A stretch of DNA of 40,220 nucleotides, taken from NCBI GenBank assembly GCA_017408045.1, contig JAFQVL010000046.1:1-40220 (forward strand). Reading direction: 5' to 3'. The notes under the pieces are model-generated. The model saw only the letters and a program-made list of their open reading frames with translations, made no database searches and was not told the DNA's origin. Source of the stretch: Clostridia bacterium (GTDB taxonomy: Bacteria; Bacillota; Clostridia; Christensenellales; Borkfalkiaceae). Positions 25,309 to 38,810 of the stretch are shown here, piece after piece. Every line of letters starts with the position of its first letter. The first letter of the stretch is position 1. The position numbers and the translations under genes were made by a program.

Positions 25309-25581
25309 ATGAACAAAGGCGAATTGATGAAAGCGGCGGCTAAAAAGGCAGATTTTTCTGTAAAGGATATCACGATTGCGTACGACGCGCTGTTGGACAG
25401 CATTACGGAAGCGTTGAAGAATGGCGAAAAGGTACAGCTTGTTGGCCTTGGCACGATTGAAGTGAAAGAGGTTGCGGCAAAGACTGGTATCAACCCTAAG
25501 ACCAAGGAAGCGGTGGAGATTCCTGCTTGCAAAAAGCCCGTTATGAAATTTGGTAAGGCTTATAAGGATCTGTTCAACTAA
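25309..25581 (+). CDS. HU-family DNA-binding protein
   Basis: This 90-residue histone-like protein is of standard HU length. It begins MNKGELMKAAAKKADFSVKD, the helical dimerisation part, then GEKVQLVGLGTIEVKEVAAK and TGINPKTKEAVEIPACKKPV, the beta arm that inserts in the DNA minor groove (the usual GRNPxTGE reads GINPKTKE). The C-terminus KFGKAYKDLFN differs from the common VKFKAGKxLKDAVN. It compacts the chromosome and bends DNA. Its own strong promoter and terminator make it monocistronic. Confidence 0.93.
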   Translation: MNKGELMKAAAKKADFSVKDITIAYDALLDSITEALKNGEKVQLVGLGTIEVKEVAAKTGINPKTKEAVEIPACKKPVMKFGKAYKDLFN

Positions 25582-25596
25582 AAGAAGCACGAAAAA

Positions 25597-25627
25597 ACGC
25601 CCTGCGCTAAGGCAGGGCGTTTTTTTG
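25597..25627 (+). terminator. Terminator of the HU gene
   Basis: ACGCCCTGC and GCAGGGCGT form a perfect stem around GCTAAG, followed by a run of T. The first repeat of the adjacent palindromic array starts at its end. Confidence 0.9.
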
Positions 25628-25850
25628 TGAAGTTTTTGCTAAAAGCAAAAGTGAAGTTTGGGGCGGTTGCCCCAAGTGAAGTTTGCACCATGTACAAGTG
25701 AAGTTTCGCCTGATGGCGAAATTATGGAAATATTCCACAACGATTGCCAAAGGCAATCAATTCACGAACGGCGTTGCCGTTCAATTCACGCCGTGAGGCA
25801 ATTCACGAAAGCAAAGCTTTCAATTCACTTACCCAAAGGGGAAACTTAGC
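25627..25850. repeat. Palindromic hairpin array A (hybrid motif)
   Basis: The left half has four direct GTGAAGTTT motifs (25627, 25651, 25676, 25698), separated by short inverted repeats such as TTTTGC-TAAAA-GCAAAA, GGGGC-GGTT-GCCCC and TTTCGCC-TGAT-GGCGAAA. After an AT-rich centre (about 25721-25740) the right half has four AATTCAC motifs (25759, 25783, 25800, 25822), separated by GATTGCC-AAA-GGCAATC, GAACGGC-GTT-GCCGTTC, GCC-GTGA-GGC and GAAAGC-AAA-GCTTTC. Every linker hairpin has a different sequence. The array fills the gap between two convergent genes. No frame in it is credible. Confidence 0.9.
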
Positions 25851-25855
25851 ATTTT

Positions 25856-26857
25856 TTACTGTTCGGAAGAATAGAAGCCAAGCCCCAAGACCTGCGAAAC
25901 GTTGCTCATTACGGCGAAGGCATCGGGGTCGATTTCGTGCATCACTCGCTTTAAAATGGGCACTTGTCGACGGCTGACTACACAGACCAGCATGGAATGT
26001 TCAATCTTCGTATACATGCCCTTTGCAGGAATGCTGGTAGTGCCGCGGCTCAGTTCGTTCATCAAGGCGGTTGCCATTTCCTCTGCCTTGTCGGTGATGA
26101 TTCTAAATTCGATTGCCGACTGGAAACCGTTGGTCATGGACTCGTTGGTTTTGCTCTCAATATACGTTTCCAGTACGGCGAGCATAATGGGCAGCAAACG
26201 GTGCGCTAGGTCGCCGTCCACGTCAATGACGAAGAAGGATGCGCCGATGACGATACAGTTCATGGCAAACAAAATCCAAGCAATGCTTGCCGCCGCTAAT
26301 TTCTTTTGTATCAGAACGGCTAAAATATCCGAACCGCCCGTGCTGCCGCCTGCTTTGAAGGCTAAGACGATAGATGCGCCTATCAAAAGCCCTGCCGCCA
26401 CCGCTGCGAAGATACGTTCGGCATCGCCGTCGAAGGCAATTCTAATATCTTCCCCGATATGTTCCAACAGCATCAGCCACAGCGACTGCATAAGGATATT
26501 CAAGGTTGATAGAAATGCGAAACGCTTTTTCACGAAGAAAAAGGCTAAAACGATGAGGGGCACGTTTAGACACAATACGGTGATACTCTGTTGCCATTGT
26601 AAGGGGCTTAATTCTAGCAAAACGGCAACGCCCGTTACGCCGCCGATAGTGAAGTGGTTTGGCGCAATCAACGTATAAGAGGCTACGGCGACCAAAAAGG
26701 AAGATAGTATGGTATATAAGATTGCTCGTGCCCAGCGCAAAAAGCCTCTCCACTTGCCGTTGCCCTGGGGGTGGATATTTTCCTTGGTGATTTTGGGCGG
26801 CAGATTTCCCGCCGTCGGCATCGTTGCCGTGGGTTGTGTTTGTTCTTGATTTTCCAT
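25856..26857 (-). CDS. YitT family membrane protein (DUF2179 C-terminus)
   Basis: This is a protein of about 333 residues. The ATG at 26857 follows AGAGGAAG; the longer frame up to 26989 runs into repeat element B and is rejected. About 50 hydrophilic residues precede a membrane domain of five or so helices with the YitT features NHFTIGGVTGVAVLLE, PLIVLAFFFVKKRF and AFKAGGSTGGSDILAVLIQKK. The last 90 residues form the soluble DUF2179 domain (FRIITDKAEEMATALMNELS). The family's substrate is not established. A second YitT gene lies at 33106. Confidence 0.9.
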   Translation of the reverse strand: MENQEQTQPTATMPTAGNLPPKITKENIHPQGNGKWRGFLRWARAILYTILSSFLVAVASYTLIAPNHFTIGGVTGVAVLLELSPLQWQQSITVLCLNVPLIVLAFFFVKKRFAFLSTLNILMQSLWLMLLEHIGEDIRIAFDGDAERIFAAVAAGLLIGASIVLAFKAGGSTGGSDILAVLIQKKLAAASIAWILFAMNCIVIGASFFVIDVDGDLAHRLLPIMLAVLETYIESKTNESMTNGFQSAIEFRIITDKAEEMATALMNELSRGTTSIPAKGMYTKIEHSMLVCVVSRRQVPILKRVMHEIDPDAFAVMSNVSQVLGLGFYSSEQ

Positions 26858-26914
26858 AAATACTTCCTCTTGATAGTGCGGTGCGACGACGTAGCGTATC
26901 TTGCCGTTCGTCTG

Positions 26915-27193
26915 TAAGCTGACAAGACTTGAACCTTTTAGGTTTTGACGGCGAGAAATCCCCAAATTGTGCAGGATTTCCTCTTGCAATACGGACGGTA
27001 TTCCTGCGCGAAAATCCTTTCATTTAAGAAATTTCGCGCTCGTGAAAACTGCGTAGCATCTTAAAATAGGGATTTTGTGATGGATTTAGGCGGTGGCGAC
27101 CGCCGCCGTATCAGCATACTGCAAGGGCGCAACCGTCTTAAAGGCGCGCAAAATAACATTTTAAGACTGAAAGGTTCAAGTCTTATCAGCTTA
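26915..27193. mobile_element. 280-bp inverted-repeat element, copy B
   Basis: This is a complete, uninterrupted copy of 279 bp. The ends TAAGCTGACAAGACTTGAAC (from 26915) and the sequence ending CTTATCAGCTTA at 27193 pair over about 25 bases. Inner stems: AAGGATTTTCG-type arms around the GCAATAC/GTATT hairpin, TTTAAGA with TCTTAAA, GGCGGT-GGCG-ACCGCC, and GTCTTAAA with TTTAAGAC. No coding capacity. It sits between the yitT start and the rplI terminator. Confidence 0.88.
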
Positions 27194-29603: not shown

Positions 29604-29831
29604 GTGAATTGAAATCTTTGATTTCGTAAATTGACGGCTTTGCCGTCGTGAATTGAACGCTAGAAGCGTTCGTGAATTGCAAGGCTGCTGCCTTGCGTTA
29701 TGGAAAAATTATAAATACTGCCGCAACGATTGCCGTAGGCAATCAATTCACGTTTTGCAAAATCAAAACAATTCACGCCGCAGGCAATTCACGCGACAAA
29801 CGTCGCAATTCACGGCAAGGCTGTGCCTTGC
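29604..29831. repeat. Palindromic hairpin array B (GTGAATTG/CAATTCAC motif)
   Basis: The left half has GTGAATTG motifs at 29604, 29625 (as GTAAATTG), 29648 and 29671, separated by AAATC-TTT-GATTTC, ACGGC-TTT-GCCGTC, AACGC-TAGAA-GCGTTC and CAAGGC-TGCT-GCCTTG. The centre (about 29697-29726) is AT-rich. The right half repeats AATTCAC between GATTGCC-GTA-GGCAATC, GTTTTG/CAAAAC, GCC-GCA-GGC, GCGAC/GTCGC and GCAAGGC/GCCTTGC. Like array A it fills a gap between convergent genes and begins directly after a terminator. Confidence 0.9.
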
Positions 29832-38588: not shown

Positions 38589-38810
38589 GTGAAGTTTTTG
38601 TTTTACAAAAGTGAAGTTTGCGCTTTGCGTAAGTGAAGTTATTTCGTTCAACTCATAGTGAAGTTTTGCTTAAAGCAAAGTTAAGGGATCATTTTATAAA
38701 CCCGTCGATCATTTTTTGCAATGCAAAAAACTTCACTGTCCGCAGGACAACTTCACTTCATAGAAACTTCACCGCCAAAGGCGACTTCACTGTGTTTGCT
38801 TCAGCAACAC
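38589..38810. repeat. Palindromic hairpin array C (GTGAAGTTT/AACTTCAC motif)
   Basis: The left half repeats GTGAAGTT(T) at 38589, 38611, 38633 and 38658 with hairpins including TTTTGT-TTT-ACAAAA and TTTTGC-TTAAA-GCAAAG between them. A centre (about 38679-38713) with ATTTTATAAACCC separates it from the right half, where (A)CTTCAC alternates with TTTTTTGC-AAT-GCAAAAAA, TGTCC-GCA-GGACA, TTC-ATA-GAA, CGCC-AAA-GGCG and a final GTGTT/AACAC hairpin that lies inside the ispDF 3' end. The stop codon of ispDF overlaps the last motif. Unlike arrays A and B it lies between two genes read in the same direction. Confidence 0.9.

Follow-up and report, generated by a model that had tools for sequence, protein, structure and literature searches.

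Which system maintains an array of short motifs spaced by hairpins that change from gap to gap? The question is raised by positions 25627-25850 of the window (the whole analysed stretch of 40,220 nucleotides, contig JAFQVL010000046.1 of a Clostridia bacterium), where an array of direct GTGAAGT motifs is joined to an array of AATTCAC motifs in the opposite sense. The original prediction ascribed the hairpins either to selection of their shape or to copying by a hairpin-dependent protein, such as a single-strand transposase.

The hybrid element between hup and the yitT-family gene

Two types of elements are referred to below. Type B elements have the plan (GTGAATT-hairpin) x4, GTTRYGGAA, AT-rich centre, TTCCRYAAC, (hairpin-AATTCAC) x4. 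The heptamer of type C is GTGAAGT, and a frequent end of this type is a degenerate motif with a hairpin (CTAAGTTTGCCC..GGGCAA).

Reading of the sequence confirmed the layout of two inverted half arrays, with all motifs at the positions originally given (Table 1). The hairpins are TTTTGC/GCAAAA, TTGGGGC/GCCCCAA, TTCGCC/GGCGAA, GATTGCC/GGCAATC, GAACGGC/GCCGTTC, GCC/GGC and GAAAGC/GCTTTC; one linker, 25683-25697, contains a mismatch (TTGCACCATGTACAA). The element starts in the T tract of the terminator following hup and runs on beyond 25828 with the end hairpin TTACCC-AAAG-GGGGAA-ACTTAG of type C. The position of its central dyad is occupied in other type B elements by GTTRYGGAA and TTCCRYAAC separated by about 12 AT-rich nucleotides.

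Since the left half belongs to type C, the right half to type B and the end hairpin again to type C, this element is most readily interpreted as a C element in which type B units have replaced the right half. It had been suggested that two arrays recombined. The assignment of the halves to two array types stands, and a second hybrid (L035) combines a C half with a GTGAAAT half, the junction being likewise at the centre. Plain end-to-end joining is not quite right, as type C reappears at the distal end of the right half; conversion within a C element accounts for this better. The hybrid element itself is an ordinary gene-less hybrid copy, and the interest lies in the system behind it.

The hup and yitT genes are in tandem in three relatives (G109, G049, G088), whereas in the source genome hup is inverted and has another 5' neighbour. 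Thus the hybrid element lies at a rearrangement breakpoint. Because of this difference in the orientation of hup relative to yitT, no empty site could be cleanly read at the hup-yitT locus of the relatives. A different dispersed repeat occupies 26915-27050 of the window (136 bp), with four further copies in the source genome at 97-98% (on contigs C22, C28, C32 and C58).

Table 1. Features of the hybrid element, its neighbours and the other elements of the window.
Feature	Position	Strand	Remarks
hup, HU-like DNA-binding protein	25309..25581	+	PF00216; left neighbour, no part in the element shown
Intrinsic, bidirectional-looking terminator 3' of hup	25588..25629	.	18-bp inverted repeat, 94% complementary, then T tract
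Left half array, type C	25627..25729	+	GTGAAGT at 25627, 25651, 25676, 25698
Left-half hairpins	25634-25650, 25658-25675, 25683-25697, 25705-25720	+	
Fifth, degenerate unit of the left half	25721-25727	+	ATTATGG
Centre, dyad joining the C and B halves	25721..25741	.	ATTATGGAA-ATA-TTCCACAAC
Right half array, type B	25733..25828	-	AATTCAC at 25759, 25783, 25800, 25822; innermost unit GTTGTGG (on -)
Right-half hairpins	25742-25758, 25766-25782, 25790-25799, 25807-25821	-	
Type C terminal hairpin and degenerate outer unit	25829..25850	-	TTACCC-AAAG-GGGGAA + ACTTAG; end as in C elements L043, L045, L050, L051 (TTGCCC..GGGCAAACTTAG)
YitT-family membrane protein	25856..26989	-	PF02588 and PF10035; right neighbour, no part in the element shown
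Second element, type B (GTGAATT)	29604..29813	.	5+5 units; directly after a terminator, 3' of a PTS EIIC gene
Third element, type C (GTGAAGT)	38589..38808	.	Minus strand resembles Gut-1 (40.1 bits, E 1.4e-4), short of the Rfam gathering threshold

The array family in the source genome

The source genome (G000) is a draft of 1.28 Mb in 80 contigs, 81% complete, and the named genomes closest to it are MAGs of uncultured Clostridia, mostly from herbivore guts. A pattern search across the genome yielded 125 motif-linker-motif pairs, whereas the reversed pattern, used as a control, yielded none. At the fetched loci, 97 of the 131 linkers between successive GTGAAGT or GTGAATT motifs are fully paired, compared to 0.76 expected after shuffling. 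The outer linker pairs are Watson-Crick in 93% of cases (29% expected after shuffling), and the folded strand is 8 s.d. stabler than dinucleotide shuffles. The original prediction had been staked on palindromic linkers beyond chance and on motifs elsewhere in the genome, and both were found.

The genome holds about 35 dispersed intergenic elements, each formed by two inverted half arrays and occurring in both orientations. Four hairpins with five heptamer-like units are present in 44 of 54 half arrays in this genome and in 12 of 19 in a second array-rich genome (G095), where the count takes in the degenerate innermost unit. The idea that hairpins keep their shape and not their sequence holds for the shape and for the loops, which vary among copies. 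However, the stems are position-specific within each genome, those of type B being AAATC, GCATAC, GTTTTG and GATTGCC in one half and GCAAGGC, GAACGC, GACGGC and GATTTG in the other.

Constraint on the hairpin shape, as proposed originally, is supported by two-sided stem changes across copies (26 of 57 consensus pairs) and by the residual stem mismatches of the dispersed copies, which on the A[N]TTCAC-sense strand are 19 G-T against 3 A-C (p = 9e-4); in the matching halves of the leaders of IVP genes (see below) they are 8 against 1. Such a bias would result if this strand had to fold by itself, in the form of RNA or single-stranded DNA. A ladder model predicted by RNAalifold, with pairing of left and right motifs and stacked four-way junctions, is not favoured, because single-motif changes (such as GTAAATT at 29604 and TATTCAC in L048) are uncompensated in the partner. 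The near-identical pair of copies at L048 was considered as a candidate for recent transposition; some right flank is common to both copies, and thus the pair may be a segmental duplication.

Divergent gaps are avoided by the elements (3/41 vs 20/55), which often adjoin terminators and convergent gene ends. The genes beside them have no evident common function. The centre of one type B element is interrupted by an intrinsic terminator (L039:2560-2620), and at L087 and L195 (SIG406) a TCATTCTGAGCGGAGCGATAG-like repeat lies directly beside type B elements.

Similarity to the Gut-1 RNA

At the gathering threshold, Rfam reports one tRNA in the window and nothing else; a permissive scan was needed to reveal Gut-1 (RF01706, gathering threshold 50 bits), which was described as a noncoding RNA only from human gut metagenomes (PMC2864571). 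The Rfam consensus of Gut-1 is GUGAAAU-hairpin in tandem. Type C elements of the source genome match the model with 51.8, 50.9 and 50.6 bits, the first and the last of these values being those of L031 and L043. The hybrid element scores 24.1 bits (E 1.6), below the threshold. It shares with Gut-1 the architecture of three or more short hairpins between tandem GUGAAAU-like heptamers, but its heptamers are GTGAAGT or GTGAATT instead of GTGAAAT. The Rfam model also represents one half of 77 nt, whereas the elements of the source genome consist of two inverted halves, occur in tens of copies and are associated with IVP genes (see below).

Gut-1 matches were found in 44 of 245 Clostridia genomes, from 33 genera. 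Their distribution is patchy, with up to at least 18 matches per genome, and they are often adjacent and on opposite strands; canonical GTGAAAT elements likewise have the two-half plan. Elsewhere in Clostridia, type C arrays belong to a longer conserved element of 350-400 bp, which opens with a 13-bp palindrome and includes a strong hairpin resembling a terminator and a conserved 3' part. The conserved part ends in CCGCTAAGRACATCACCC in the extended elements L063, L064, L065, L114, L141, L142, L162, L163 and L173. A phage origin was considered and rejected: 35 viral contigs match the three-motif pattern, and clearly palindromic linkers were seen in one of them only (L232). No other contig of the viral collection has clear heptamer-hairpin arrays, and L232 may be a piece of host DNA.

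Association with S23/IVP genes

In one type B element of the source genome (L045; C40:93250-93840) a complete ORF of 117 amino acids lies at the exact centre between the two halves, flanked by GTTGAGAA and TTCCACAAC. It encodes a 23S rRNA intervening-sequence protein (IVP; PF05635, 92.6 bits) and no other PF05635 gene was found in this genome. Among solved structures the nearest is 2rld (E 1e-30), with 5 chains, and S23p was reported as a homopentamer (PMC4990558). The hybrid element has no PF05635 gene inside or beside it.

Genes of this family were gathered from 45 genomes. In Clostridia, an array adjoins 41 of the 67 IVP loci, usually just upstream of the start codon; among the 26 loci where no hairpin array was detected, some have plain heptamers or arrays missed by the detector. 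Half arrays are concentrated within 450 bp of IVP genes (65 in 58 kb, compared to 6 in 119 kb farther out, that is, 1.12 vs 0.05 per kb, a 22-fold difference), and none of the 31 control loci from the PF01797 and hup searches has an array. A PF05635 match is present in all 14 Gut-1-rich genomes, one of these matches being weak, and in one of 9 Gut-1-negative genomes. A protein partner, as postulated for the hairpin arrays, is likely, and IVP is a candidate for it.

The heptamers at IVP loci are GTGAAAT, GTGAAGT, GTGAATT, GTGATAT, GTTATAT, GCTAAAT, GCGATAT, TCGATAT, ATGAAAT, ATGAATT and ATGATAT. On the IVP tree the heptamer changes 17 times, as compared with 26 times at least and 29.8 on average after shuffling; the host label changes 32 times. 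One genome can hold several IVP paralogues with differing heptamers, as with GTGATAT and TCGATAT in G190 or G285, and the heptamer difference is 2.2 both for IVP pairs from the same host and for any pair. As far as sequence comparison goes, this shows that the array and the IVP gene travel as one unit and that the heptamer tracks the IVP lineage, not the host. Since array and gene are inherited together, the congruence bears on their unity and not on binding.

No PF05635 gene was detected in the array-bearing genomes G095 (93% complete, about 100 motif pairs), G109, G125, G035 and G073. Thus either the protein is dispensable for the persistence of arrays, or the gene resides in unassembled DNA.

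Some IVP genes, which encode four-helix bundles, are situated inside defence operons (L386, L388, L392): they are flanked by hsdS and hsdR on a Monoglobus plasmid, by cas2 and cas1 in Anabaena and by csx2 and cas1 in Pseudanabaena.

Period-7 repeats at IVP loci

Among the 26 Clostridia IVP loci in which no hairpin array was detected, exact tandem repeats of period 7 occur beside the gene (11 windows near, 0 far), and no other period is seen. In a set of IVP loci from Bacteroidota, cyanobacteria, Acidobacteriota, Verrucomicrobiota, Spirochaetota and other phyla, period-7 repeats occur at most 450 bp from the gene at 20 of 36 loci, as counted from the list. Exact period-7 windows there number 46 near IVP genes and 6 far from them, with almost none of other periods. 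These are plain tandem heptamers, often inverted across the two sides of the gene. In Coxiella, the intervening sequence has tandem heptamers just upstream of the S23p ORF (PMC4990558). The unit that recurs at IVP loci is thus the heptamer, and arrays with hairpin spacing are an elaborate version of it.

The five-copy stoichiometry was not seen in the plain heptamer runs of the other phyla, which often have more than five copies. Given also that the parser accepts a degenerate fifth unit, the match between five units and a pentameric protein may be a coincidence.

The TAACTGA heptamers of Beggiatoaceae and cyanobacteria also form direct repeats in intergenic DNA, and the protein that reads them is unknown (PMC4679880). 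They differ from the arrays described here, as hairpin spacing and a link to IVP are not discussed for them (PMC4679880), and their relation to IVP is only a lead. Two cyanobacterial IVP genes (L384, L389) are flanked by inverted runs of AATTCGT/AATTACG heptamers, which recall the TAACTGA repeats.

Comparison with known systems and alternative explanations

A close parallel is provided by the S23/IVP intervening sequences, selfish elements with inverted ends around a gene of the same protein family. The elements of the source genome differ from them in lying between protein genes instead of inside rRNA genes (the hybrid element between hup and the yitT-family gene, not within a 23S rRNA gene), in the hairpin spacing of the heptamers and in that most copies are gene-less. 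The arrays are also distinct from CRISPR, which has repeats of at least 20 nt and unrelated spacers: here the repeat is 7 nt long, and the palindromic spacers recur by position.

One alternative is that the array is a structured regulatory RNA and not mobile. When transcribed, it would bind IVP or another factor and control or protect the neighbouring mRNAs, and in the leaders it would autoregulate IVP translation. The filing of Gut-1 as a noncoding RNA and the frequent terminators and convergent gene ends beside the elements agree with such a role. So do the arrays that precede many IVP start codons by 15-60 bp and the leader hairpins, which show G-U and not A-C (8 to 1 G-T against A-C mismatches in matching halves of IVP leaders). 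Moreover, the left end is complementary to the local arm as well as to the centre. This long-range alternative pairing is retained through matching sequence changes: type A has GAAATAAATCC/GGATTTATTTC, type C has TAAGTTTGCCC/GGGCAAACTTA, and one of the variants is TAAGTGTTCCGC/GCGGAACACTTA. On the other hand, no common function is evident among the neighbouring genes, and the elements occur in both orientations, in tens of copies and with patchy presence between species. We thus regard this explanation as rather unlikely.

The arrays resemble REP/BIME/REPIN sequences in copy number, short dispersed palindromes, inverted pairing and placement by gene ends (PMC3733652). The strand-specific wobble bias would also arise by folding of single-stranded DNA, as in repeats moved by a RAYT-like (HUH) transposase. 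However, each REP palindrome carries by definition a foot tag, GTAG or CGTC (PMC3733652), whereas the foot in the hybrid element is GTGAAGT or GTGAATT, and the motif and array design are different. The gene next to arrays encodes IVP and not a Y1 protein. The RAYT/Y1 transposase (PF01797), suggested originally as the partner, was searched for in 27 genomes and is missing where arrays are richest: it has no match in the source genome (81% complete), in G095 (93%) and in four more array-bearing genomes (G013, G032, G057, G073). Movement by another single-strand transposase of this kind is therefore improbable.

Quasi-palindrome correction at replication could keep stems perfect and homogenise copies with no function involved, which would suit the near-perfect stems and hypervariable loops. 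It is very improbable, as the best conserved parts are the non-palindromic heptamers between the hairpins, and neither the strand-specific wobble bias nor the association with IVP genes agrees with it. A duplex array for a nucleoid or partition-like protein, with palindromic spacers, would have the short conserved motif, regular direct repeats and dyad centre seen here, but it is hardly credible, since the unit-to-unit spacing of 16 to 25 bp on the duplex (linkers of 9-18 nt) gives no constant helical phase and becomes constant once the hairpins are folded out.

Proposed mechanism and implications

The hybrid element probably represents the cis-acting array of an S23/IVP element in a copy that lacks the gene, with IVP as the putative reader of the array and selfish spread as its presumed mode of dispersal. 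An IVP ring, homopentameric in solved relatives, would recognise the heptamers of a single folded strand, most probably A[N]TTCAC-sense RNA. Each subunit would bind about one heptamer, the hairpins being looped out between them. A known analogue is TRAP, a ring that binds repeated triplets. A five-subunit ring on five heptamers would fit the five units per half.

The IVP gene with its array may spread as a selfish element, like the IVP-encoding intervening sequences in 23S rRNA genes. Gene-less copies would be non-autonomous or left over, settled mainly 3' of genes, and might be mobilised in trans. The latter possibility is supported by the copy number, patchy presence and intergenic placement off divergent gaps, and by the selfish character of the IVP elements known from rRNA genes. 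It loses weight because no IVP gene was found in G095 and other array-rich genomes and no clean empty site was seen. Neither an empty site, nor a target duplication, nor a recent transposition was found. The C/B hybrid could have arisen through recombination or conversion between elements at their centres.

More generally, we tentatively propose that S23/IVP proteins and heptamer repeats form a widespread, hitherto unrecognised system, a reading that is somewhat less likely than not. A pentameric ring would read heptamer codes on folded single-stranded RNA (or DNA), and each paralogue in a genome would have its own heptamer. Gut-1, and perhaps other orphan heptamer repeats, would be the cis part, and gene-less copies would spread in trans. 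Gut-1-type arrays and the IVP family are each known, but their link and the heptamer rule appear to be new as far as the open-access literature goes: no report of either was found there, nor anything direct on the motif or on a link between IVP and repeats.

Two orphans of unassigned function would thus meet, the Gut-1 RNA motif and the 23S rRNA intervening-sequence protein. If the ring does read heptamers, a role of IVP outside rRNA genes would be testable by simple binding assays, and for a large class of dispersed bacterial repeats there would be an alternative to RAYT as the candidate partner protein. Genomes with several IVP paralogues that differ in their heptamers would then offer a natural specificity code to decipher.
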